Shown piece by piece: positions 23,131 through 64,000 of a stretch of 64,000 nucleotides of DNA; the first letter of the stretch is position 1; the number at the start of each line of letters is the position of its first letter. The position numbers and the translations under genes were made by a program. Source of the DNA: Brumimicrobium glaciale (GTDB lineage Bacteria > Bacteroidota > Bacteroidia > Flavobacteriales_D > Crocinitomicaceae); assembly GCF_004152935.1 (NCBI RefSeq), contig NZ_SETE01000006.1:62001-126000 (forward strand), in the 5' to 3' direction. Below the pieces are notes generated by a model. It searched no databases. It saw only the letters and a list, made by a program, of their open reading frames with translations, and was not told where the DNA came from.

Positions 23131-23587
23131 AGTTGGGTTACAAATAAACGAGTTCTCTAATATAAGTGAGTTATGGGATTTAGTTACTGGATTTTGGAGA
23201 TTTAAAAATTATTGTTTTACAAATGGAGGTGCGTTTCAAATTGTACTGGATATTATATTTTCACTAAAAAATGGTTGTGATTTTATTGGAATTCGAATTC
23301 CATTTCCCCGCATTGTAGAGACGCACAGCAGTGTGTCTCTACAATACGGGGAAACGATTCCATGATTAAAAATAGACCAGTCCAACGAAATTTAATAACG
23401 GTTCTAAACGCTAAAAAAAAACGAATCCCACAAAAAATATTCAGTTTACCCTTTTACAATTAGAGTCAGAAATGATTTTTTTCTATGGAATTTTTTTTAC
23501 TATAAATGCGAACTGTCCGAAAATAGCGGACATTTGAAATATTCTTTTAATTTTTAATGTTCTGATTTTCAACACCAATAACAAAAT
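23131..23587. other. Intergenic region with flank-paired palindrome
   Basis: 457 bases. Holds the palindrome at 23303-23354, a sequence block (about 23353-23440) related to a block near 24.73-24.89 kb, and a small hairpin TGTCCG/CGGACA at 23514-23532. No gene supported. Confidence 0.6.
23303..23354. repeat. GTAGAGAC palindrome, copy A
   Basis: The core GTAGAGACGCAC ... GTGTCTCTAC (23315-23342) is flanked by TTTCCCCGCATT on the left and AATACGGGGAAA on the right. The flanks pair with each other with one mismatch. The core is shared with copies B and C; the flanks are not. Confidence 0.85.
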
Positions 23588-24562
23588 CTATCTCCCAAGC
23601 TTCTCCATAAAATCACAATACTCCTCAGTTGAAACCTTCAAATATCTAGGATTTCCATACAGCAAACTCACATCACTAAAGAAAAGATGATTTCTAAGCT
23701 TGTTAATTTCCTCTTCCGAAAATAAATGATGAATTGGCGGCAAAATAGTCGCTTGTCTTTCTGAATCTCTCAGGCCACCATAGCCAACGAAAATATTGGA
23801 ATAATAAGTGTCATTGCACAGTCTAGATTCTAGATTTTGTCGTGCAGCGATTTTTTGATTTACAGAATCAATGGTAAAAATATATCCATCATACAATGCA
23901 CTTCTTTCTATTATGCTTCCAAAAACATCTCGGTGAATTAAACCTTTTTTTGTTAAGCTGTAAATTTTATCCTGAACTGATTCTAGGTTTTTCCATCCGG
24001 AATGAATCATCAAAATACCAATCATTTCAGAACTGTAGTAGTTAGTTTCAAATCGATTAAAGAGATGAGGTTTCTTGACCATCCATTTTTTAAGTTTTAC
24101 TCCTGTAATACTATCTGCTTTAGAGATATCCCCGTTCTTTTTAGATCGTGAGCGTTGATCTCTTATCATAGCGAAATGAACAGGTAAAGCACTTTTTTTC
24201 TTTTTTAGCTTATTTTTTCTGTAGATTTTCTTTAATTTTCTTTTCGAATAAGGAACATTATATTGTTCTAATGAATATTTTAAATCTCTATACAATAGGC
24301 CATTGCTGAATCCTGATTTTATTAAATAGAAATTCAATTTATTATGGAGTACGTAATTGTTTAAGATTGCTTTATCATAGTCATTTGGAAAACCACTGTA
24401 TGAATTAAGTCCTTCTTGATAATAGTAATCACCCTTAACATAATCTTCATTGGCGATAAAGTATTTAGCGGAATCTATTAGTTGATAATAACGTGTGTAA
24501 TCTTGGGCAAACGAAGTTTGATATATGAGAAATAAGGAGAAAATAAAAATGTTATGTTTCAT
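23588..24562 (-). CDS. Exported protein of unknown function
   Basis: 324 aa. Signal peptide MKHNIFIFSLFLIYQTSFAQ. Helical mature part (LIDSAKYFIANEDYVKGDYY, with one TPR-like pair), a very basic stretch KRKLKKIYRKNKLKKKK around residues 108-124, and later IFVGYGGLRDSERQATILPP and LLYGNPRYLKVSTEEYCDFM. I do not recognise the family. It is bounded on both sides by homologous intergenic repeat modules (23.3 and 24.7 kb). Probably periplasmic. Confidence 0.68.
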   Translation of the reverse strand: MKHNIFIFSLFLIYQTSFAQDYTRYYQLIDSAKYFIANEDYVKGDYYYQEGLNSYSGFPNDYDKAILNNYVLHNKLNFYLIKSGFSNGLLYRDLKYSLEQYNVPYSKRKLKKIYRKNKLKKKKSALPVHFAMIRDQRSRSKKNGDISKADSITGVKLKKWMVKKPHLFNRFETNYYSSEMIGILMIHSGWKNLESVQDKIYSLTKKGLIHRDVFGSIIERSALYDGYIFTIDSVNQKIAARQNLESRLCNDTYYSNIFVGYGGLRDSERQATILPPIHHLFSEEEINKLRNHLFFSDVSLLYGNPRYLKVSTEEYCDFMEKLGR

Positions 24563-24682
24563 AAATGAGCCTTGCTAAAATTGGTTGTTCATTATAATTA
24601 AAAACTCTTATTTGGTTACTTTTTTTTGTTGAAAATAAATTGAATCGGTTTCAAATTATAACCGTTTGGATATATTAATTCG

Positions 24683-24738
24683 GTTTTGTTGGTAATGTAG
24701 AGACGCACGGCCGTGCGTCTCTACATTACCAACAAAAC
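24683..24738. repeat. GTAGAGAC palindrome, copy B (perfect 56-base inverted repeat)
   Basis: Core GTAGAGACGCACGG / CCGTGCGTCTCTAC (24697-24724), extended without mismatch by the locus-specific arms GTTTTGTTGGTAAT and ATTACCAACAAAAC. Total 2 x 28 bases with no loop. Confidence 0.92.
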
Positions 24739-24793
24739 GGTTTCCACAATGAACAAAACGATTTCCACGATAAACAAAACCGTTATCGCGTTG
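24731..24793. repeat. Three tandem 21-base repeats
   Basis: AACAAAACGGTTTCCACAAT then G, AACAAAACGATTTCCACGAT then A, and a diverged AACAAAACCGTTATCGCGTT then G. The first unit overlaps the right arm of palindrome B. A single related unit follows palindrome A (GGGGAAACGATTCCATGAT). Confidence 0.75.
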
Positions 24794-24940
24794 AAAAATT
24801 TTTAATCACAACAAACAACATATTTAACCCAAATAGAATCACGGTTCTAACGTTTACAATTTTTAATCCCACAAAAGAATCCATACCACATAAACCACAT
24901 CCAAAATTAGTCAAACCCATTTCATCTCAAACCAATACCC

Positions 24941-24970: not shown

Positions 24971-25109
24971 TTTTCATTAAATATATTCTAAATCCTGATT
25001 TTGTGGAGTAGAATTTTTGTTAGCAAGGCGCTAGTTGTTTCTTTACAACTGTAAGTTGACTTTTGTCAATGTCAGTTTAAAAAACATCTAGCAACGCCGA
25101 TAACGGAAA

Positions 25110-26381
25110 TTATAATCCCAACAAAATTTCGTATGGATCTTTCCCTCCAAATATCATTCTCTCCGGATTCTCCAACATCTCTTTAACTTTCACCAAGAAA
25201 CTTACAGATTCCTTACCATCGATAATTCTATGGTCATAAGAAAGTGCTAAATACATCATTGGACGAATTTCAACTTTTCCATCAATTGCAACTGGACGCT
25301 CAATAATGTTGTGCATTCCAAGAATCGCAGATTGTGGTGGGTTGATAATTGGTGTCGACATCATCGAACCAAATACACCTCCGTTGGTGATTGTAAATGT
25401 ACCACCAGTCATTTCGTCTGGAGTGATTTTACCGTCACGTGCTTTAATTGCTAATCTTTTGATTTCAGCTTCTATTTCAGCTAAAGTCATTTGCTCTGCG
25501 TTACGCACAACAGGAACCATTAATCCTTTTGGAGAAGAAACTGCAATTCCGATATCTGCATAATCGTGCAAGATCATGTCTTTACCGTCGATTTGTGCAT
25601 TCACAGATGGGAATAAGTTTAACGCTTCCGTTACCGCCTTAGTAAAGAAAGACATAAACCCTAAATTCACTTCATGGTGATCAGCAAATGCTTTTTTGTA
25701 TTTCGTTCTCAAGTCCATGATTGGCTTCATGTCCACCTCGTTGAAAGTCGTTAACATTGCTGTTTCGCTTTTTACAGCTACTAAACGCTCTGCAACCTTA
25801 CGACGCAACATTGACATTTTCTGTGGTGTCTTGTTACGCGTTCCACCCCAACCAGAAGTAGATTCAGCATCAAAACCAGCAGCCATTGCATCAACAACAT
25901 CTTGTTTAGTTATGCGACCATCTTTTCCAGTTCCAGAAACTTGTTTAGAAGAAACATTGTTCTCCTTCATTATTTTTGAAGCAGCAGGAGAAGAAGTTCC
26001 TTTAGCGTAAGAATCTTTCGACTCTGCAACAGGTGTTTCTTTCTTTTCCTCTTTCTTCTCTTCTTTTTTGTCTTCTTTTACCTCTTTCGCAGGCGCTTCT
26101 TTTTTATCTTCATTTGGAGTTTCCTTTTTTGCAGGAGCTTCAGCAGAAGTATCAATTAAACATACTACTTGTCCAACAGCAACAGTTTCACCTTCTTCAG
26201 CCTTTAGGGTGATTATCCCTGCCGCTTCAGCTGGTAATTCTAAAGTCGCTTTGTCAGAATCAACTTCTGCAATAGTCTGATCTTTTTCAACGTAATCTCC
26301 ATCTGCAACAAGCCACTCAGCGATCTCAACTTCTGAAATCGATTCTCCTGGGCTTGGTACTTTCATTTCTAGCATTGCCAT
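25110..26381 (-). CDS. odhB: 2-oxoglutarate dehydrogenase E2 (dihydrolipoyl succinyltransferase)
   Basis: 423 aa. Transfers succinyl groups to CoA in the TCA cycle. It has a lipoyl domain (1-78) with the lipoylated Lys in [11 protein letters not shown] (about residue 44), then a Lys/Glu/Ala-rich flexible linker. An E3-binding domain follows (about 130-165: [31 protein letters not shown]). The catalytic domain to the end carries [19 protein letters not shown] with the active-site His (about 394). The linker is long and repetitive ([14 protein letters not shown]). It follows sucA by 15 bases and shares its transcript. Confidence 0.96.
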
Positions 26382-30029: not shown

Positions 30030-33000
30030 TTACCGAATCAAATTCACGCTCCCAACAATCTCCGCATTCTCATCATCCCTCAAAATCTTATAACTAATTT
30101 TCCAAACATAAACGCCCTCTGGGGCGAAAATCACATTGCTCGAACCATAACTCCCATCCCAACCATAATATGCATCATTACTTTCAAAAATCATTTCTCC
30201 CCAACGATTAAAAATTTCTAATTTATAATCCAACGGATCAAATCCTGTTGTGAAAATTGGTCTAAATGTTTCGTTGAATTTATTTCCATCTGGCGTAAAT
30301 GTATTTGGAATAAAATAAACCAATTCTTCAAAAAACGGCAAATCTAAATTGAATGTATCTTTACAACCCAAATTGCTCGTTGCGATTAATTCTAGATCAA
30401 AAATTGCTTTTTCTTTGATAGAATTTACTGAATATTCATGCGTTGGATTGATTTCATTTGAGAAACTTTCATCACCAAAATCCCATTCGTAATTCGTTGC
30501 TCCAGTAGATTCGTTTATGAAATCTACTTTGTTGTAAATGTTGGTAATTTCTTCTGGATTTACCTTGAAATCAGCAATTGGATAATCGTCTATGCAAATG
30601 TAATCTGAAACGGTGAAATCGTCGATGCAGCCATTTGTTAATTCAACTTGCAGCGTAACATCGAAACAACCTGCATCTTTGAAAATGTAATTTACGTTGC
30701 ATCCTGAAACTTGATCTACACCATTAATAGTATAAAGACACTGATTTCCAATGCCCGACGAAGTACTTATTAAATTGATTTCTTGAGGCGAGCAACCAAC
30801 AGTTTGGTTTGCTGTAAACGAAATATCTGGTGAAATGATTACTTCAACATCAACTTGATCTGTGTTTACGCAGCCAAAAACAGACGTTCCAACAACGATG
30901 TAAGTTGTAAGTCCCAAACTTGGCGTAAATGGAACATTATCAATTACGCCATTATCCCATAAATAAGTATCTGCTCCGCTTCCAGAAAGTGTAGTTTCAT
31001 CGCCATCACAAACTGTGTAGTCTGGACCAGCATCTACATTTGGCAAAGGATTTATCGTTACTTGAACTTGATCCGTTGTAAAACAATTCACTCTTTCTGC
31101 AGTAACAGTATAAGTTGATATTCCAACAGGTGGAGAGAAAATGAAACCATCAATTACTCCATTATTCCAAGAAATATTTGCGTTTTCAGGATTAAACGCT
31201 GTTAATGTAATTAAATCATTTTCACATGCTGCAATGTCAATTCCAGCGTTTACAATTGGTGGAATTGGATCAGTCAGCGTTATCGTGATGTTTTCGTTTG
31301 TGCTGCACGTTAAACATGTTCCTTCGATAATTGTAAAATCAGTATAATTTCCTTGCACAAGTCCCGTGATTGTAAATTCTCCAACGGCATCAGTCGTAAT
31401 TGAAAATGGAGTTCCGCTGTCATAAGTTAATTCATAATTGAAATTAGGCGCCAATCCTGAAATTGTAATTGTTCCCTCATTTCCATCGCAGGTTGTTGGA
31501 TTTGTGCTTGACACAGTAAAAACTGGATTAAACAATTCAATTTTTATAATTTGCGAAACATTTATCGTGTTTCCACAATCATCCGCAATGCTGTAAATTC
31601 GTGTGATTTCTTCGCCATTACACGTATTTCCGTCGGAATTATCTGAAACAAATGCGACCGTTGGGTTTGCAGTGCAGTTGTCTGCTTCGTTAGTTACCAC
31701 TGCAATATCTGGAAGTGGAACATCAGCCAAACAAGCTACAAAAATCGTATCAGGATTACTCGCTGTTGGCAAAATATCGTCGTTAATTGTAATTGTTTGA
31801 ATAACATCAATATTATTTCCGCATTTATCTTCAATGTTGTAAGTTCTTGTAATACTTTCTGGACAAGTATTTCCATCAGAAACATCGCTTACGTGCGTCA
31901 CAATAGGAATTGCAGAACAATTGTCGGCTTCGTCAGTTATTGATAAAACATCCACAATCGGAACATCACCAATACATTGAACTGTTGTGTCGTTCGGTGG
32001 TGTTGCTGTTGGGAGGATAATTTCGCTGATTACAATTTGCTGGGTACAACTTAGAGATACCCCACAAGTATCTGCAATTTGATAAGTTCTTGTAATGGTT
32101 TCTGGACAAATAATTCCATCAGAAACTTCGCTCAACAAAGTAAAAGAAGCAGAATCAATTACTCCTCCAACTGGAATTGTTGCAGAACCTCCAGCGGAAA
32201 TAAATGCATTAAAATCAGCATAAGGCGCTTGTTCTGAAATTTCGCACAAAGCTGTTAAATCTCCCGGACAAGTTATTCCTGTTATCGCCGGAGAAACTGT
32301 GATACTCATTTGATCTGAAGAAAAACAGTTTACTCTTTCAGCGGTAATGGTGTAAAAAGTTGTTCCCACTGGTTGAATAAATCCAACTCCATCAGTAATT
32401 CCGTTATTCCAAGTAATGTTGGCATTTTCAGGATTAATTGCATTTAAAATGATGGTTTCACCTTCGCAATATTGTTCATCTGGACCAGCATTAATAATGG
32501 CAGCAGTTGGGTCATTTATGTTAATTGAAACATTTTCTGTTGTGGTGCAGGCTGAACAATCAGCATCTGAAACCGTGTAGTTTGTGTAAGAGCCCGCTGG
32601 AAGTCCTGTTATTACGTAATTTCCTGCTGCGTTTGTTGTGATAGCATTTGTTACTCCAAAATCATAACTCATTTCATAATTTGTATTTGGCGATAATCCT
32701 GAAAGTGTTATTTCTCCATCCGTTCCATTACAAGAATTTGTTCCTTGTCCTGAAACAGTGAAATTGGGCGTGTAAGAATCTACAAGAATCGTATGATTCA
32801 CATTTATGCTATTTCCACAATCGTCAGTAACGCTGTAAATCCTCGTAATGATTTCTCCGTTACATGAATTTCCGTCAGTACTTTCTGAAACAAAAGCAAC
32901 AATTGGAATTGCAGTGCAATTGTCTGCTTCGTCTGAAACTACAGAAATATCAACCGCAGGAACATCAGTTAAACATTGAACTGTCGTTGTGACGGGATTA

Positions 33001-35780
33001 CTTGCAGTTGGGTTTATATCATCGTTAATTGTAATGGTTTGAATAAGGTTAATATTATTTCCACAGTCATCAGCAATATTGTAAGTTCTTGTGATGATTT
33101 CTGGACAAGTATTTCCATCTGAAACTTCTCCAACAAAAGTAACCGCGGGAATTGCTGTACAGTTATCTGCTTCATCAGTTATTAAATTAATATTGGCCGG
33201 CGGAAGATCCCCAATACATTGAATTGTTAAGTCTGCAGGCGCAGTTCCTGTTGGATTTATGTCATCATTAATTGTAATGGTTTGGGTAACATCAATATTA
33301 TTTCCACAGTCATCAGCAATATTATAAGTTCTGGTAATGATTTCTGGACAAGTATTTCCATCTGAAACATCGCCAACAAAAGAAACAACTGGATTAACTG
33401 TACAATTATCAGCTGCGTTGGTAATTGACGTAATATCTGCAGCAGGGAAATCACCAATACATTGAATTGTAGCATCAGCAGGTGCTGTTCCAGTCGGAGG
33501 AATATTATCATTGATTGTAATTGTTTGAGTTACATCAATATTATTTCCACAATCATCGGCAATATTGTAAGTTCTTGTAATTATTTCTGGACAAGTATTC
33601 CCATCCGAAACATCACTAACAAAAGAAACTATTGGATTTACTGTGTTATTATCAGCTTCATCGGTAATTAGAGCAATATTTGCAGGAGGAAGATTACCTA
33701 TGCATTGAATAGTAATATTAGTTGGTGCTGAACCAGTTGGGTCAATATTGTCAGCTATATTGAAAATTTGCGAACAAGTTTCATTTACACCGCAACCATC
33801 TGTTACTTGGTATGTTCTCGTTATTGTTTCTTGACAACCATTCACCGTTGTAACATCACTTAAGAAAGTGAAAGAATTTATCACTGCAGCAGTTCCAAAT
33901 CCAAAAGATATTGTTCCCCCTCCAGAAATAAAGGCGTTAAAATTGGCGAAAGGGGGAGGCAATAGACTAGAGCCACTAAGACTTGTTGCCGGTGGACAAT
34001 TTAAAACAGTAGAGGAAACACCAATAGTTATGTTAAACGAATTTTGAACTTCACAAGATAGGCCTGTTGAGAAGCTATCATAAATATACATTAAGGTTGA
34101 AGCTGTAATTGCATCACCCGCATTAAATTGAGTTCCTGTTCCATTAATTCCCGTGTAATATGCTTGATTTCCGCTTAAACTAGAACCTGTAATCACAGGA
34201 AGGATATAGGGTACACATTGTGTAATATCAGGTAATGCATCAATACTGAGTGATTGGACATTTATGCAATATGTTGTATCATAGACACAACCAAAATTAT
34301 CTGTTGCTTCATAAGTATAACAGGCGTTTCCACTTGTAGCTGGCACAACAGTAATAGGATTTGTTCCAGAAATTATTGTTGGATCTGGCTGCCAGCTTTC
34401 GGAAATAATGGTTGGTGTAAAGGTTGTGGAAGGAGGAATAATCGATGGGTCAAAATCAATAGACCAATCAAAAAAGTGTCCATTGTCAATAGTTGTGTTA
34501 TCGGTAATTGTGAAGGTCCATAGTCCATTTAAATCACAACCGACCAGTGCACTCATTGGATTGTCTGATTCGTATACACCCGAAGGCAGAATTGAAGTTC
34601 CATTAGTATTACTAGCCCAAGTTCCACCTGTTGCATTGGGAGTCCAGCAGTAGTTAAACCCAATTCCTTGAGGGTATCCTGGGGCATAAGTAACACCTAA
34701 ATTACTCGTACTTCCACCAAGAAATTCTTTCAAAATAACACTCTGTCCGGAGGGACATTCAATTCCAATTTCTAAATCACCAATTGTTGAATGATTCATA
34801 TTCACGCAAATTGAACCTAGTTCACTAATATTTGTGAACGTTTGACCAGTAATAAAGCATTCTAAATTTACTGAGTTGACAATCGATTGGCCATTCCCGC
34901 CATTTATAAAGATTGGGGAGAAGTTAGGCTGAACACATGATTTGTCAAAGGTTACAGGAGAAACCACTCCGTTTAAAGTAGCTTGATCACCCAAGCAAAT
35001 TGAATTTGGGGTTCCAACAGTACCGCTAAAATCTGGAGTTGTTGAAACATGTATTTCTTGTGTAAAGGGAGCATCATTGGCACAACCTGTTAAATCTTCA
35101 ATTTCGAGATCAACAAAAAATACTCCTTCATTGCTAAAAGTATGTGATGCGATTTTACCAACTGGATTACTTCCGTCCTGAGTGTTCCAAGTAAAGATTG
35201 ATGTAGCATCAGACTGTGCATAACTGTTGTTGTTTTGAGGATATGTTCCACTTCCATTAAAGTTTACAGTATTTCCTTGACAAATTCGAATAATTCCATC
35301 AGGGTCTGGACTTGGCGAGAAAGTAGCATTGGCTATAATTTGCTGACAGGAATTGACACAACCAATTGTCGCTGCCCAGCCTTGTTGCGGTGCAATAGGG
35401 TTTGATATAAATACAAATGTAAGACATCCAGAAATATTTGTTGAAGAGGCCACGATAAAATTAGGTGCAGTTGCACCTCCGTATATTCCAATTACGGGGG
35501 CAGATGTGCTATTTCCATCATATATTGTTAGATTATCCCAAATAATAAAATCTATATCAAAAAATGTAAAATCAACAGTAGCTGAACTTCCATTACCGGG
35601 ACATATTGTAAAAGTAATATTTTCATTATTGGAATAATCTCCGGTAGGACCGCCAGAATCATAGAATGTTCCTGTGCAAGTAGTAACTGTTGCCCCATTA
35701 GTCATAATGAAATTTTGAGAATGAGATCTATTGATTCCAAAAATTATTACAAAAAGAAGTATAGAAAAAAAGGTTTTCAT
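30030..35780 (-). CDS. Giant HYR-like repeat adhesin with gliding-type C-terminal domain
   Basis: 1916 aa. Signal peptide MKTFFSILLFVIIFGINRSHS. A CUB-like segment follows (about 28-140: FYDSGGPTGDYSNNENITFT). Next are PKD-like and P-domain-like segments (about 280-450: MNHSTIGDLEIGIECPSG, LNGLWTFTITDNTTIDNGHF). The middle has six tandem units of about 77 residues (QCIGDLPPANI, DEADNCT, SDGNTCPEIITRTYNIADDCG) in blocks of four and two. Each block is followed by an SprB-like and an Ig-like unit. A PKD domain (YEWDFGDESFSN) precedes the CHU_C tail (FIPNTFTPDGNKFNETFRP, FNRWGEMIFES), a T9SS type B signal. Predicted cell-surface adhesin. Confidence 0.88.
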   Translation of the reverse strand: MKTFFSILLFVIIFGINRSHSQNFIMTNGATVTTCTGTFYDSGGPTGDYSNNENITFTICPGNGSSATVDFTFFDIDFIIWDNLTIYDGNSTSAPVIGIYGGATAPNFIVASSTNISGCLTFVFISNPIAPQQGWAATIGCVNSCQQIIANATFSPSPDPDGIIRICQGNTVNFNGSGTYPQNNNSYAQSDATSIFTWNTQDGSNPVGKIASHTFSNEGVFFVDLEIEDLTGCANDAPFTQEIHVSTTPDFSGTVGTPNSICLGDQATLNGVVSPVTFDKSCVQPNFSPIFINGGNGQSIVNSVNLECFITGQTFTNISELGSICVNMNHSTIGDLEIGIECPSGQSVILKEFLGGSTSNLGVTYAPGYPQGIGFNYCWTPNATGGTWASNTNGTSILPSGVYESDNPMSALVGCDLNGLWTFTITDNTTIDNGHFFDWSIDFDPSIIPPSTTFTPTIISESWQPDPTIISGTNPITVVPATSGNACYTYEATDNFGCVYDTTYCINVQSLSIDALPDITQCVPYILPVITGSSLSGNQAYYTGINGTGTQFNAGDAITASTLMYIYDSFSTGLSCEVQNSFNITIGVSSTVLNCPPATSLSGSSLLPPPFANFNAFISGGGTISFGFGTAAVINSFTFLSDVTTVNGCQETITRTYQVTDGCGVNETCSQIFNIADNIDPTGSAPTNITIQCIGNLPPANIALITDEADNNTVNPIVSFVSDVSDGNTCPEIITRTYNIADDCGNNIDVTQTITINDNIPPTGTAPADATIQCIGDFPAADITSITNAADNCTVNPVVSFVGDVSDGNTCPEIITRTYNIADDCGNNIDVTQTITINDDINPTGTAPADLTIQCIGDLPPANINLITDEADNCTAIPAVTFVGEVSDGNTCPEIITRTYNIADDCGNNINLIQTITINDDINPTASNPVTTTVQCLTDVPAVDISVVSDEADNCTAIPIVAFVSESTDGNSCNGEIITRIYSVTDDCGNSINVNHTILVDSYTPNFTVSGQGTNSCNGTDGEITLSGLSPNTNYEMSYDFGVTNAITTNAAGNYVITGLPAGSYTNYTVSDADCSACTTTENVSININDPTAAIINAGPDEQYCEGETIILNAINPENANITWNNGITDGVGFIQPVGTTFYTITAERVNCFSSDQMSITVSPAITGITCPGDLTALCEISEQAPYADFNAFISAGGSATIPVGGVIDSASFTLLSEVSDGIICPETITRTYQIADTCGVSLSCTQQIVISEIILPTATPPNDTTVQCIGDVPIVDVLSITDEADNCSAIPIVTHVSDVSDGNTCPESITRTYNIEDKCGNNIDVIQTITINDDILPTASNPDTIFVACLADVPLPDIAVVTNEADNCTANPTVAFVSDNSDGNTCNGEEITRIYSIADDCGNTINVSQIIKIELFNPVFTVSSTNPTTCDGNEGTITISGLAPNFNYELTYDSGTPFSITTDAVGEFTITGLVQGNYTDFTIIEGTCLTCSTNENITITLTDPIPPIVNAGIDIAACENDLITLTAFNPENANISWNNGVIDGFIFSPPVGISTYTVTAERVNCFTTDQVQVTINPLPNVDAGPDYTVCDGDETTLSGSGADTYLWDNGVIDNVPFTPSLGLTTYIVVGTSVFGCVNTDQVDVEVIISPDISFTANQTVGCSPQEINLISTSSGIGNQCLYTINGVDQVSGCNVNYIFKDAGCFDVTLQVELTNGCIDDFTVSDYICIDDYPIADFKVNPEEITNIYNKVDFINESTGATNYEWDFGDESFSNEINPTHEYSVNSIKEKAIFDLELIATSNLGCKDTFNLDLPFFEELVYFIPNTFTPDGNKFNETFRPIFTTGFDPLDYKLEIFNRWGEMIFESNDAYYGWDGSYGSSNVIFAPEGVYVWKISYKILRDDENAEIVGSVNLIR
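31500..33780 (-). repeat. Intragenic tandem repeats of the adhesin gene
   Basis: Six coding repeats of about 230 bases, each encoding ITRTYNIADDCGNNI-like and QCIGDxP-like segments. Two blocks (four units at about 32770-33740 and two at about 31520-32000) are separated by SprB/Ig-like modules. Units 1-3 of the larger block are very similar at DNA level (ATCATTAATTGTAATGGTTT recurs), which would allow unequal recombination. Confidence 0.8.
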
Positions 35781-38861: not shown

Positions 38862-41800
38862 TTATTTTTTCTCATTATAGAAAATACCTTTACTTGCTGG
38901 TTGGTCATAAAGTCCAGGCATAAAATACTTTCCTTTTTGACTGTCTTTTTTATCCAATTCAACTTCACGATTTTGCGGATGCTTTTGCAAGAATTTGTCA
39001 TTTCTTTCTGCGTAAACTGTCCAAGATACTTTCAACCCTGATGTTCCTCCAGCGATAACGAAAACACCGTTGTTTAACTCTTCTTTAATATAAAGTTGAG
39101 CATATCCACCAACAGGAGTTAAGTTGTAGCTTGGGTTTTTATTAATCGCTTCATAGTAGTCAGGCATTGTGATAATCGCTTCACCATTTGCGTCAAAAAC
39201 AGCGTTTCCTCTGTAAATATTTAACACTTCATTTGATTCTGTAGAGAAGTGACGTAACACTTTGTTTTCAGGATCTGTTGGGTGATCTATTTGGAAAGTT
39301 TTTGTTCCAGATGCACCAAGGTTTCCATTTGCGAAAACACCGAATGTATTAGGATCTGCGCCTAAATCATGATCTTGACCAACTACACCATTGTCTCCAA
39401 TACCTAAAAGTCCTTGACCACCAACAGTTCTTAGGTTTTCACCATAAATAGCTGCATCAGAACTGCTTCCAGTACTTGCTTGGCCATGGATAGCATAAGC
39501 TGCTCCAGTTGTTTTTCCAGCTATTGCAGATCCAGTTGCAGCTGTTGAATTTGTAGTTACTTCAAATGCTCCAGCGTCTGCGGTAATAATTCTACCACTT
39601 CCCGCTCCGCCAAAATCATAAGCTTGGTCTAAAGTTCCAACTGGAGGTAGTGTAACAGTGTTACCACCTGTGATTGTTAAATTATTTCCAGTCACAGATA
39701 AAGTCTGTGCATCGGGTCCAGCTATTCCTTGTTGTCCCATAGGTCCTTGAATTCCTTGTGGTCCTTGTGATCCATTAGATCCCGAAGGTCCTTGTGGTCC
39801 TGTCATTCCTGTTGCTCCAATAGGTCCAGAGGTACCTTGAGATCCTTGTGGTCCCTGAACACCTTGTGGTCCCATATTTCCTTGAGGACCTTGTGGGCCT
39901 TGGGGTCCAGTAGCGCCAGTTGCACCATCGTTTCCATTAACACCAGGCATTCCTTGAGCACCTGTATTTCCTGTTAAACCGATTGGTCCTTGTATTCCTT
40001 GTGATCCAGTAGTACCGTTATTTCCATCTTGAGCAACTATCTGCCAAGCAGTATTGTTCCAAACATAAGAAATTCCGTTTGTGCTGTTATAATATCCGTC
40101 ATTTAGTGCTGGATTGTTAGGAGCAGTTGCAAGAGTACCAATCCAGTTGATGCTGATTCCATTTGTGCCGTTTATTCCATTTGTGCCATTGATTCCTGGA
40201 GTTCCTTGGGCACCAGTATTTCCTGTTAAACCGATTGGCCCTTGAGGTCCTTGTGCACCAGTTGCTCCTGTTGCACCGTCGTTTCCGTCAGCGCCATCAA
40301 ATCCTGGTATTCCTTGCGCGCCAGTATTTCCTGTTAATCCAATTGGTCCTTGCGGTCCTTGTGAACCAGTTGCTCCTGTTGCACCGTCGTTTCCATCAGC
40401 ACCTGGTATTCCTTGAGCACCCGTATTTCCTGTTAAACCGATTGGTCCTTGCGGTCCTTGTGAACCAGTTGCGCCTGTTGCGCCGTCATTTCCATCAGCT
40501 CCTGGTATTCCTTGAGCACCAGTATTTCCTGTTAAACCAATTTGTCCTTGCGGTCCTTGTGAACCAGTTGCGCCTGTTGCACCGTCATTACCATCAGCAC
40601 CCGGTATTCCTTGCGCGCCAGTGTTTCCTGTTAAACCGATTGGTCCTTGCGGTCCTTGCGAACCAGTTGCTCCTGTTGCACCATCGTTTCCGTCTTGCGC
40701 AATTATTTGCCAAGCAGTATTGTTCCAAACATAAGAGACTCCGTTTGTGCTGTTATAATATCCGTCATTTAAAGCAGGATTAGTAGGAGCGGTTATAAAA
40801 CCACCAAGCCAATTTATTCCAACTCCATTTGTTCCATCAATTCCATTTGTACCATTTGTCCCCGAATTTCCTTGTGCACCAGTGTTTCCTGTTAAACCAA
40901 TTGGTCCTTGCGGTCCTTGTGAACCAGTTGCACCAGTTGCTCCGTCGTTTCCGTTTGTACCATTTGTTCCCGGATTTCCTTGCGCACCAGTATTTCCTGT
41001 TAATCCAATCTGTCCTTGAGGTCCTTGTGAACCCGTCGCACCAGTAGCACCGTCGTTTCCATCTTGCGCAATTATTTGCCAGGCAGTTCCGTTCCACACA
41101 TAAGAAACTCCGTTTGTGCTGTTATAATATCCGTCATTTAAAGCAGGATTAGTAGGAGCGGTTATAAAACCACCAAGCCAATTGATTCCAACTCCATTTA
41201 TTCCATTTGTTCCATTTATTCCATCAATTCCATTTGTACCATTTGTACCATTTGTTCCCGGATTTCCTTGTGCACCAGTGTTTCCTGTTAATCCAATTGT
41301 TCCTTGAGGTCCTTGTGAACCAGTCGCACCAGTTGCTCCGTCGTTTCCGTCTTGAGCAATTATTTGCCAAGCAGTATTGTTCCAAACGTAAGAAACCCCG
41401 TTTGTGCTGTTATAATATCCGTCATTCAAAGCAGGGTTAGCAGGAGCAGTTATAAAACCACCTAGCCAATTGATTCCAACACCATTTGTTCCGTTTGTAC
41501 CATTTGTTCCCGGATTTCCTTGCGCACCAGTATTTCCTGTTAATCCAATCTGTCCTTGAGGTCCTTGTGAACCAGTTGCACCAGTAGCACCGTCATTTCC
41601 ATCTTGAGCAATTATTTGCCAGGCAGTATTGTTCCAAACATAAGAGACTCCGTTTGTGCTGTTATAATATCCGTCATTCAAAGCAGGGTTAGCAGGAGCA
41701 GTTATAAAACCACCTAGCCAATTGATTCCAACACCATTTGTTCCGTTTGTACCATTTGTTCCCGGATTTCCTTGTGCACCAGTGTTTCCTGTTAATCCAA

Positions 41801-43211
41801 TTTGTCCTTGGGGTCCTTGTGAACCAGTTGCGCCAGTTGCGCCGTCATTTCCGTTCGTACCATTTGTTCCCGGATTTCCTTGCGCACCAGTGTTTCCTGT
41901 TAATCCAATTTGTCCTTGGGGTCCTTGTGGTCCTGTAGCACCAGTTGCACCGTCGTTTCCGTCAGCGCCATCAATTCCTGGTATTCCTTGAGCACCAGTA
42001 TTTCCTGTTAAACCAATTTGTCCTTGAGGTCCTTGTGCGCCAGTTGCTCCTGTTGCACCATTATTTCCATTTGTACCATTTATACCGGGAATTCCTTGCG
42101 AACCTGTGTTTCCTGTTAAACCAATTGGCCCTTGATTTCCTTGAGGTCCAGTAGCGCCTGTAGCGCCGTCATTTCCGTCTGTACCATCAACACCAGCAAT
42201 TCCTTGCGAACCTGTGTTTCCTGTTAAACCAATTGGTCCTTGAATCCCCTGTGGTCCAGTATTACCAGTAGCACCATCGTTTCCATCTTGAGCAACTATT
42301 TGCCAAGCAGTTCCATTCCACACATAGGAAATTCCATTTGTGCTGTTATAATATCCATCATTCAATGTTGGGGTAGCGGGAGCAGTTGTAAAACCACCAA
42401 GCCAGTTGATGCTTACTCCATTTGTACCATTAACACCCGGAGTTCCTTGAGAGCCTGTGTTTCCTGTTAAACCGATTTGACCTTGAACTCCTTGAGGTCC
42501 AGTAGCACCAGTCGCCCCATCGTTTCCATCTTGAGCAACTATTTGCCAAGCTGTTCCATTCCACACATAGGAAATTCCATTTGTGCTGTTATAATATCCG
42601 TTATTGAATGCAGGATTAGCAGGGGCAGTTGTAAGATCACCAAGCCAGTTGATGCTTATTCCATCTAAACCGTCAACCCCATCTTCACCACCTGTAGGTA
42701 CTGTGTAGGTTTCACCATTTTCTAAATTAAATGTAATAGAAGCTCCTTCATTATTAATTATTTCCTTTACACCATTACCAGCTTTTTCAGAATATAAAGC
42801 ATAAGGAACACTCCATATTTGTTGGGTTCCCATAGTATTGTAATTCCCACTAATATCAAGATCTACTTTTAAGAAATGTAGTCCAGTATTCCAATCAATA
42901 GAAGGGAAGTCAGCAGCACTTAGTTGAAAACCGTTTCCAATAATTAGATTAAATAATCCATTCTCATCAGTATCCGTGGTGTGTTCTTCACTGTAAATTA
43001 CATTTCCGTTGGCTTGATCTTTAACAATCGTAAATCGTACCTTGATGGTTTGATTTGCTAGAGGAAGAGAAGATATATCTGATCCAGGAACCTCTATACT
43101 TGTTGTGTTATAAGCAACTGCTTGATAATTCACCCCTTGTGGTGGGGCTTGTGCAAGCGTCATTGTGGCAAATAAAAACGCTGTTAGTCCTGTTAATATT
43201 AATTTTTTCAT
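38862..43211 (-). CDS. Collagen-like repeat protein with interspersed W-rich modules
   Basis: 1449 aa. Signal peptide MKKLILTGLTAFLFATMTLAQ. The N-terminal domain (about 22-160: GVNYQAVAYNTTS, IKVRFTIVKDQANG, GLHFLKVDLDISGNYNTMG) is frequent in exported Bacteroidetes proteins. From about 175 to 1170 Gly-X-Y tracts (GNDGATGATGPQGPQGQIGL-type) alternate with seven copies of a module of about 45 residues (GINWLGGFITAPANPALNDG followed by YYNSTNG and SYVWN). The end (about 1180-1449) has a tail-fibre-like part ending GIFYNEKK. Predicted surface fibre built of triple helices. It is the last gene of a three-gene operon. No T9SS tail is obvious. Confidence 0.9.
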   Translation of the reverse strand: MKKLILTGLTAFLFATMTLAQAPPQGVNYQAVAYNTTSIEVPGSDISSLPLANQTIKVRFTIVKDQANGNVIYSEEHTTDTDENGLFNLIIGNGFQLSAADFPSIDWNTGLHFLKVDLDISGNYNTMGTQQIWSVPYALYSEKAGNGVKEIINNEGASITFNLENGETYTVPTGGEDGVDGLDGISINWLGDLTTAPANPAFNNGYYNSTNGISYVWNGTAWQIVAQDGNDGATGATGPQGVQGQIGLTGNTGSQGTPGVNGTNGVSINWLGGFTTAPATPTLNDGYYNSTNGISYVWNGTAWQIVAQDGNDGATGNTGPQGIQGPIGLTGNTGSQGIAGVDGTDGNDGATGATGPQGNQGPIGLTGNTGSQGIPGINGTNGNNGATGATGAQGPQGQIGLTGNTGAQGIPGIDGADGNDGATGATGPQGPQGQIGLTGNTGAQGNPGTNGTNGNDGATGATGSQGPQGQIGLTGNTGAQGNPGTNGTNGTNGVGINWLGGFITAPANPALNDGYYNSTNGVSYVWNNTAWQIIAQDGNDGATGATGSQGPQGQIGLTGNTGAQGNPGTNGTNGTNGVGINWLGGFITAPANPALNDGYYNSTNGVSYVWNNTAWQIIAQDGNDGATGATGSQGPQGTIGLTGNTGAQGNPGTNGTNGTNGIDGINGTNGINGVGINWLGGFITAPTNPALNDGYYNSTNGVSYVWNGTAWQIIAQDGNDGATGATGSQGPQGQIGLTGNTGAQGNPGTNGTNGNDGATGATGSQGPQGPIGLTGNTGAQGNSGTNGTNGIDGTNGVGINWLGGFITAPTNPALNDGYYNSTNGVSYVWNNTAWQIIAQDGNDGATGATGSQGPQGPIGLTGNTGAQGIPGADGNDGATGATGSQGPQGQIGLTGNTGAQGIPGADGNDGATGATGSQGPQGPIGLTGNTGAQGIPGADGNDGATGATGSQGPQGPIGLTGNTGAQGIPGFDGADGNDGATGATGAQGPQGPIGLTGNTGAQGTPGINGTNGINGTNGISINWIGTLATAPNNPALNDGYYNSTNGISYVWNNTAWQIVAQDGNNGTTGSQGIQGPIGLTGNTGAQGMPGVNGNDGATGATGPQGPQGPQGNMGPQGVQGPQGSQGTSGPIGATGMTGPQGPSGSNGSQGPQGIQGPMGQQGIAGPDAQTLSVTGNNLTITGGNTVTLPPVGTLDQAYDFGGAGSGRIITADAGAFEVTTNSTAATGSAIAGKTTGAAYAIHGQASTGSSSDAAIYGENLRTVGGQGLLGIGDNGVVGQDHDLGADPNTFGVFANGNLGASGTKTFQIDHPTDPENKVLRHFSTESNEVLNIYRGNAVFDANGEAIITMPDYYEAINKNPSYNLTPVGGYAQLYIKEELNNGVFVIAGGTSGLKVSWTVYAERNDKFLQKHPQNREVELDKKDSQKGKYFMPGLYDQPASKGIFYNEKK
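39700..42680 (-). repeat. Intragenic repeats of the collagen-like gene
   Basis: About 3 kb of nested repeats. 54-base-scale units encode GNDGATGATGxQGPQGxIGLTGNTGAQG. Longer units also contain the INWLG module (seven copies, about 40050-42660). Several copies are nearly identical in DNA (for example TTGTGCTGTTATAATATCCG recurs at each module), so copy number is probably unstable. These repeats also create the many spurious antisense open frames here. Confidence 0.88.
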
Positions 43212-46275: not shown

Positions 46276-46343
46276 TTTGTAAAGATATTGATTATATGAG
46301 AATGGGTTGTGAATTAGATTGGGACATTTTTAATTTTTTGGTA

Positions 46344-46393
46344 TTTGAACTATTGTAGAGACCCACGGCCGTGCGTCTCTACAATAGTTCAAA
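46344..46393. repeat. GTAGAGAC palindrome, copy C
   Basis: Core GTAGAGACCCACGG / CCGTGCGTCTCTAC (46355-46382) with locus-specific arms TTTGAACTATT and AATAGTTCAAA that pair exactly. One mismatch in the core. It lies between the starts and stops of co-directional genes. Confidence 0.9.
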
Positions 46394-46399
46394 TTTTCG

Positions 46400-63313: not shown

Positions 63314-64000
63314 ATGCAAGAAGAATATTTGCATTATCTCTGGCGTATGAAACGCCTAAATTTCAACCAATTAAAACTCACTAACGGAGCACCAGTAAGC
63401 GTTCATGAAGTCGGATGGTATAATCTCGATGCTGGACCAGATTTTTTCAATGGAACAGTTTCTATCGATGGAATTAAATGGTCTGGTAATATCGAATTAC
63501 ATATAAAATCCTCAGATTGGTATGCACACAAACACCATTTAGATGAGGCTTATAATAATGTTGTTTTACATGTTGTGTTCGAACATGACAAGGAAGTATT
63601 TGTTAAAGGAATCCAACTGCCAACTATTGAACTCAAAAATCAAATTGATTTAGCACACTTAAGAAATTATGAGAAAATCATTTCAAATTCTTATAAAGTT
63701 CCTTGTTCAAATGTGGTAATGGATTATAAATTGTCCTTACTTCAGCAAATAGATGTTTCCTTTCTTCACCGCATAGAAAGAAAAGGAATTGAGCTTTTGG
63801 ATTTAGTGAAAATTGAGCAACGAGATAAATATTCGATTTTATTGGCAGCCATTTTACAAGCCACTGGCGGGAGAGTGAATAAATTACCAATGCAAGAATT
63901 GGCGAGTATTTTACCTTATAAGTTAATTGCAAAAGAACAATGGGACAAAACCCGATTAGAAGCACTGGTTTTTGGCTCTGCAGGCTTCCTAAATGATGAA
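63314..64000 (+). CDS. DUF2851 family protein (truncated by the window end)
   Basis: Open from ATG 63314 to the window edge, 229 residues visible. It begins MQEEYLHYLWRMKRLNFNQL and contains the family pattern VGWYNLDAGPDFFNGTVSID, WSGNIELHIKSSDWYAHKHH and LDEAYNNVVLHVVFEHDKEV. Later come FLHRIERKGIEL and a helical stretch. This is DUF2851, a Bacteroidetes/Chlorobi family of unknown function and about 420 residues. The pattern is strong; the rest lies outside the window. Confidence 0.9.
   Translation, partial: MQEEYLHYLWRMKRLNFNQLKLTNGAPVSVHEVGWYNLDAGPDFFNGTVSIDGIKWSGNIELHIKSSDWYAHKHHLDEAYNNVVLHVVFEHDKEVFVKGIQLPTIELKNQIDLAHLRNYEKIISNSYKVPCSNVVMDYKLSLLQQIDVSFLHRIERKGIELLDLVKIEQRDKYSILLAAILQATGGRVNKLPMQELASILPYKLIAKEQWDKTRLEALVFGSAGFLNDE

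Follow-up and report, generated by a model that had tools for sequence, protein, structure and literature searches.

The window analysed in this study, that is, the whole 64-kb stretch G000:C6:62001-126000 of a 4.27-Mb genome (G000, the host genome), contained three copies of a 28-bp palindrome, GTAGAGAC-N12-GTCTCTAC. No occurrence of this core is expected in the shuffled window (0 expected), and the three copies ranked as the first three entries among the inverted repeats of the window. The cores were enclosed by outer arms of 12, 14, and 12 nt in copies 1, 2, and 3, respectively, and the gene downstream of the copy 3 core is presumably uvrC-like. The features are as follows:

23303..23314, unstranded: left arm of copy 1, 11 of 12 positions paired with 23343-23354
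23315..23342, unstranded: core of copy 1, a double-foot REP, GTAGAGAC-N12-GTCTCTAC
23343..23354, unstranded: right arm of copy 1
24683..24696, unstranded: left arm of copy 2, paired at 14 of 14 positions
24697..24724, unstranded: core of copy 2, a perfect palindrome
24725..24738, unstranded: right arm of copy 2, continuing into a short tandem repeat
24731..24798, plus strand: three spaced direct repeats of 21 bp, starting within the right arm of copy 2
46343..46354, unstranded: left arm of copy 3, wholly unlike the G003 and G004 arms of this copy
46355..46382, unstranded: core of copy 3, upstream of the uvrC-like gene; the same place is occupied in G003 and G004
46383..46394, unstranded: right arm of copy 3

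A sequence-only reading of this DNA had reported three copies with a common 28-base core, which we located in the window sequence, and had stated that their flanking arms always pair. Pairing was indeed complete in copies 2 (14/14) and 3 (12/12), but copy 1 paired at 11 of 12 positions, with a single C/A mismatch, four positions out from the core, that had gone unmentioned. As a control, flank pairs 28 bp apart at 63,600 other window positions gave a perfect run of at most 8, which occurred twice. The remark that no T-run follows the copies was borne out by eye; the stem followed by a T-run of an intrinsic terminator was absent from the window copies, and across the armed copies of the host's bacterial family the left arms are T-rich, the reverse of terminator polarity. 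No alignable core-less sites for copies 1 and 2 were found in the other genomes of the genus, where the intergenic region downstream of the sucB-like gene had diverged or rearranged too far (judged by eye for 5 of 9), and G003 had an old, decayed core copy near the region of copies 1 and 2. A search of plasmid records for polymorphic copies gave 5 records, one of them spanning most of the query, and yielded nothing usable.

Other repeats were also observed in the window. The 3' end of the sucB-like gene (about 24977-25115) carried an unrelated dispersed repeat, with relatives of about 100 bp at several places in G000, G002, G003, G004, and G010. A protein of 1449 aa with long collagen-like GXY repeats was encoded at 38862-43211 (minus strand), and a further repeat protein of 1916 aa at 30030-35780. 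Degenerate half-cores in the repeats at 24731..24798 were a by-eye reading and were set aside, as such units generally lacked statistical support.

The 28-bp core belongs to the double-foot REPs (GTAG…CTAC), a kind already known for RAYT (TnpA_REP) subclass 2.4. REPs of this subclass are described as abundant in Cyanobacteria and Bacteroidetes and as lying both within the RAYT gene and on its flanks (PMC6006769). Like these elements, the present core carries 5' GTAG and the reverse complement CTAC at its ends, and its copies flank RAYT genes, some lying in frame within them; unlike them, it has locus-specific outer arms, which the description of the subclass 2.4 REP in PMC6006769 does not mention. 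Nine exact core copies were identified in G000, and a looser pattern, GTAGNGNC-N11-13-GNCNCTAC, identified 27 cores with the feet GT[AG]G 5' and C[TC]AC 3' of the hairpin, compared with 0 for the reversed pattern.

A RAYT-like gene at G000:C6:255617-256141 had an exact copy on one side and a decayed copy (TTAGAGAC..) on the other, the arrangement of a REPtron, and the same gene had two flanking copies in G003 and one adjoining copy in G004. This gene matched NF047646 weakly and in two pieces. A second RAYT (G000 C2:435010) was adjoined by a GTAGGGGC copy of the TTTG type; its protein scored below the cut-off for NF047646 (54.6 of 80 bits) and above that for Y1_Tnp. RAYT-family matches were present in all 26 genomes with copies in f1, the bacterial family of the host genome, and exceeded the curated cut-off in 7. 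The search for a RAYT gene advised by the sequence-only reading thus yielded RAYT genes linked to cores, and the core is therefore probably mobile. An open RAYT-like frame ran through the core in 5 of 5 chosen copies, all from other f1 genomes, the core lying between HuH and Y motifs whose positions were read by eye (motifs partly from PMC6006769). These in-gene copies (L015, L020, L026, L055, and L064) have the REP in frame inside RAYT genes, and low-complexity coding repeats surround it in L015, L020, L026, and L064. An open frame ran through the core of ten f1 copies, which lie mostly in RAYT genes, and 3 of the ten were armed, as coding constraint predicts.

Arms were not confined to the window. 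The sequence-only reading had named non-complementary flanks at most copies in the genome as the observation that would count against it; instead, 20 of the 27 G000 cores were armed (arm score at least 6), 2 scored 5, and 5 scored 0 to 2. Eight of the nine exact copies had a perfect run of at least 8, the ninth being window copy 1. The five bare copies were all of the GTAGGGAC type, with the centre TTTG|CAAA or near it. At least one exact core copy occurred in 26 of 240 genomes in f1. After copies with fewer than 30 bases on one side or with identical 40 flanking bases were dropped for the comparison with copies elsewhere, 66 non-redundant exact copies remained in f1, of which 47 scored at least 6, 39 at least 8, and 14 from 0 to 2. 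When flanks were exchanged between f1 loci, scores of at least 6 and at least 8 were obtained in only 1.8% and 0.9%, respectively, which upholds the earlier claim of arm complementarity. Arm length in f1 had a median of 12 and a range of 6-19, and the left arms of armed copies were 50% T. Eight of 11 decayed copies examined also lay in a clear palindrome.

Orthologous copies, picked among the fetched loci and then aligned between species, revealed how arms change. One site (L024/L057/L062) was shared by three species with flanks 1-13% diverged. The copy in G034 was near-bare, with a 2-nt arm. G025 had the same left flank as G034, a new right arm mirroring the left, and an inserted half-core, with 6 of 6 changed arm positions on the right; G029 had the same right flank as G034 and a new left arm mirroring the right, with 4 of 4 changed positions on the left. 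The most parsimonious reading is that the copy was near-bare at first and gained its arm on the right in one of these sister species and on the left in the other. At L184/L171, the core was bare in G000 and carried a paired arm of 8 nt in G004; even in G000 the three outermost pairs were complementary, which a return point requires. Because 3 of 8 arm positions differed on both sides, the direction of this change is not clean, and arm loss in G000 is possible. Bareness as a sign of youth was given up, since the bare G000 copy is common to G004. At the uvrC-like site (window copy 3), the same place was occupied in three species; the arms of G000 were wholly different, and G003 and G004 shared arms and had three paired differences in the core.

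Paired changes were counted in eight orthologous pairs in which both species had arms and these shared one register; the three pairs in which one copy was bare or near-bare were treated separately. In five pairs (L008/L160, L185/L173, L136/L167, L141/L181, and L001/L011), the compared arm positions differed solely by paired changes, and in three (L019/L065, L033/L034, and uvrC-like G003/G004) the compared arm was identical. Altogether, 15 of 70 arm pairs had changed on both sides and 0 on one, compared with 1.4 two-sided and 21.8 one-sided changes expected from the flanks under independent mutation, an expectation inflated by the poorly aligned flanks of L001/L011 and left flanks of L136/L167 and L033/L034. 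In the cores of the same pairs, 5 of 112 had changed on both sides, 2 on one, and 1 otherwise. Excluded from the count were uvrC-like G000 and L104/L046/L043, whose arms were entirely different, L017/L053 and L021/L058, whose arms differed without a common register, L022/L068 (no differences close to the core), L069 (the third copy in the L019 set), the paralogues L027/L073 and L014/L049/L050, and L003/L157 (different elements). The same copy being bare or armed, together with 15 two-sided and 0 one-sided changes, indicates that the arms were probably written in place, and more than once, after insertion. In this comparison of species, inverted repeats became more perfect in place as one arm was copied onto the other, as in quasipalindrome template-switch mutation.

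Near-exact extra half-cores were identified beside the arms at L181 (three 21-bp units), L057 (inserted), and L053 (repeated). Degenerate half-cores with at most 2 mismatches were found at 6 of 94 arm ends (mean 1.7, maximum 4, for 20 shuffled motifs), and with at most 3 mismatches at 17 of 94 (mean 12.4, maximum 18, for shuffled motifs). Degenerate half-cores outside the arms, barely above shuffled motifs, were therefore rejected as a general rule.

Judging from the alignments, the most likely origin of the arms is quasipalindrome conversion, in which hairpin-primed template switching starts from the REP core in place after insertion; we assign this a probability of about 0.8. The core would land as a double-foot REP, probably mobilised by RAYT, and its strong hairpin would cause the polymerase to switch template after landing. 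The nascent strand would fold on the core and copy its own earlier flank as a reverse complement over about 6 to 19 nt, and the polymerase would then rejoin the true template, with the former sequence replaced or displaced. A single event would give a perfect arm, and later events would mirror fresh mutations or replace entire arms. A hop of the polymerase back into the core could give an extra half-core, and repeated hops between flank and core might account for the extra units at L181, L057, and L053. The polarity of single copying events was assigned by parsimony. Copying may take place at the replication fork, although a version based on repair or primed by RAYT would look the same in these comparisons. 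Hairpin-primed template switching had been one of the mechanisms proposed in the sequence-only reading, and it gains support from the bare and armed orthologues and from paired double changes at occupied sites. It does not, however, predict the narrow arm length or the T-rich left arms. In a broader form, which we regard as doubtful, one family strongly rewrites the flanks of strong palindromes into mirror images, so that mobile hairpins would grow in place after insertion and draw neighbouring DNA into concerted evolution, possibly driven by RAYT nicking resident REPs and priming the copying.

Selection on an RNA or DNA hairpin (for mRNA stability, termination, or a protein site) could also keep the arms paired, with ordinary mutations compensated singly, and it would be consistent with the joint change of the two sides and with the location of 55 of the 66 f1 copies outside open frames. 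However, selection predicts one-sided intermediates and mostly transitions, whereas no one-sided change was seen in 70 arm pairs despite flanks differing by 6 to 52%, and 10 of the 15 paired changes were transversion pairs, which cannot pass through G-U, the other 5 being transitions. Outright replacement of the arms at the uvrC-like site and the restriction of arm changes to a single side, seen in both L057 and L062, also argue against it, and the lack of terminator polarity argues against a role in termination. We thus consider selection an unlikely source of the arms, although it may help to retain them.

Alternatively, the arms might be made at insertion, if RAYT left the hairpin foot with a 3' end that was extended on the flank before rejoining. 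The arms do begin at the foot, all 26 f1 genomes with copies have RAYT-family matches (7 over the curated cut-off), and copies flank or adjoin the RAYT-like gene in G000, G003, and G004. Insertion-made arms predict arms on the bare and foreign copies as well, and the lack of arms on these copies counts against this explanation. The same copy was bare in one species and armed in another, arms kept changing later, and 5 of 5 G000 GTAGGGAC copies with the centre TTTG|CAAA or near it were bare. Paired changes also occurred within the core (5/112) and in a repeat without a GTAG foot. The same core pattern elsewhere scored below 6 in 137 of 142 copies among the matches listed. Transposition itself as the maker of the arms, the other mechanism offered in the sequence-only reading, is accordingly disfavoured by the bare G000 copies (5 of 27 scoring 0 to 2), one of which is armed in G004, and by these copies elsewhere, and we regard it as highly improbable. 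A RAYT nick may nevertheless start later rounds of copying in place.

The copies outside f1 were drawn from 118 matching stretches among the matches listed and 3 loci from a search within the same order. Among the matches listed, 5 of 142 copies with the same core pattern scored at least 6 and 131 of 142 scored 0 to 2, compared with 47 of 66 armed in f1 (Fisher p 2e-25, with related copies taken as independent in these tests and orthologous copies otherwise counted apart); the arms are thus not a general property of REPs. The five armed copies outside f1, among the matches listed, were from Adonisia, Mediterranea, a Bacteroidia isolate, a Spirochaetes MAG, and Crenothrix. For 80 of the 118 loci, grouped from record titles, 2 of 50 copies were armed in Bacteroidota, 1 of 22 in Cyanobacteria, and 0 of 11 in others. 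In other families of the same order, copies were found in three genomes, and three of the four copies were examined, all bare. Copy age was ruled out as a confounder because the contrast persists at equal decay of the inner core: with one to three inner-core mismatches, 14 of 17 copies were armed in f1 vs 2 of 48 elsewhere, among the matches listed. It also persists among the matches listed for copies with no open frame through them (43/55 in f1 vs 5/111 elsewhere), so that coding constraint was rejected as its cause. Copies with an open frame through them were armed in 3 of 10 cases in f1 vs 0 of 28 elsewhere, and those too close to a sequence end for a frame call in 1 of 1 vs 0 of 3, again among the matches listed. 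Coding constraint may lie behind some of the bare f1 copies.

Something in f1 thus appears to make flank copying frequent. SbcD exceeded the cut-off in 4 of 14 f1 genomes (G000, G003, G004, and G019) vs 5 of 11 elsewhere, in a search covering 25 of 26 genomes or loci (L266 left out). Since SbcD exceeds the cut-off in G000, SbcCD loss was rejected as the cause in the host genome, though SbcD loss may contribute in certain other f1 genomes. XseA was found in 11 of 11 f1 genomes, including the host genome, and in 9 of 13 others, and loss of ExoVII was rejected as the cause.

Finally, it is hardly credible that the REP inserts into the middle of palindromes already present, whether other hairpins or old REPs, with arms older than itself, for although L150 and L032 look nested by eye, with old half-cores in mirror positions outside the arm, only four zero-loop palindromes without a recognised repeat core, all imperfect (L133, L330, L334, and L343), were present in 864 kb sampled, the terminator-like palindromes in the sampled stretches have loops and a polarity opposite to REP arms, and the near-bare state of an occupied site at L024/L057/L062 contradicts this as a general explanation.

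Mirrored changes were also observed in another palindrome. A dispersed repeat of more than 100 bp with a palindrome of about 60 bp (CGACCTAATTGCA|TGCAATTAGGTCG) was identified at 21 places in G000 (e.g., L309-L329) and was not found in G003 or G004 with the pattern used. It has no GTAG foot and is unrelated to the REP core. In 18 copies compared with the consensus, 14 differences were mirrored (6 distinct) and 5 were unmirrored; L314 and L325 were left out of this count for register-shifting indels, and the raw count over 20 copies (L319 left out beforehand) was 15 paired, 15 single, and 1 other. The 5 unmirrored variants indicate that mirroring is not immediate. Mirrored rewriting is thus probably not confined to REPs, and other hairpin families in the sampled stretches also had a few copies with differing yet paired arms.

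In addition, REP-like palindromes of the form CTACCACGAG..CTCGCGGTAG and relatives, with differing paired outer arms, were noted at L040, L041, L343 13379, and L348 8963, those at L040 and L041 adjoining RAYT genes (C2:90797 and C6:389253). Minisatellites lay directly beside REP cores in the right flank of L009 and at about 2090-2280 of L153 (17 bp, AACAAAACGATCATTCC; ATGTTGGGTGGTGG). Perfect arms of 19-21 nt on hairpins tipped by GC-GNA-GC, which forms a very stable DNA mini-hairpin, were seen at L120 10029, L123 4064, L129 14370, L134 16588, and L333 2187; these arms mostly differ between loci, with L333 repeating L123. Among GC-NNN-GC seeds, 4 of 58 GNA seeds were armed vs 0 of 304 others in a first sample, and 1 of 27 vs 0 of 309 in a second, in which the one armed seed repeats an arm of the first. 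GNA triloops as arm seeds were set aside as a weak candidate, the second sample adding just one repeated arm.

The REP itself and template switching are already known. The quasipalindrome template-switch mechanism is presented as established in E. coli (PMC7202029), and template switching has been proposed to create and maintain hairpins (PMC8794818). As in the quasipalindrome mutations treated in PMC7202029, copying of the nascent strand makes a hairpin-forming repeat more perfect; those mutations improve an imperfect repeat that already exists, whereas here new arms would form on a near-bare core, at many loci in one family. The RNA hairpins in PMC8794818 are similar in that one event gives a perfect stem or several compensatory changes, but the account there concerns rRNA genes, and here the repeats are intergenic and have no known function. 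In the small inverted triplications described in PMC13334657, fold-back priming and a second switch give inverted and direct copies, comparable to the extra half-cores; that description deals with yeast and cancer genomes, in which, unlike here, no repeat core acts as a seed. In the open-licence PMC literature on RAYT or REP with template switching, compensatory change, or quasipalindromes, as far as its accessible content goes, no arms of this kind were found reported. What appears to be new is the proposed role of REPs in seeding arm growth, along with the sharp restriction of the arms by lineage.

The arms change together over evolution, and most copies own a locus-specific pair. If the proposed mechanism is true, REPs are seen shaping the surrounding DNA after landing. 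The copies would provide a natural record of bacterial hairpin-templated mutation at many loci, in both directions, and with states before and after, and would offer an account of how perfect palindromes of 50-64 bp arise and stay perfect without selection. They also warn that covariation in an intergenic hairpin does not, by itself, prove a functional RNA. The contrast between the family and other bacteria (47/66 vs 5/142, among the matches listed) makes the cause searchable by genetics.
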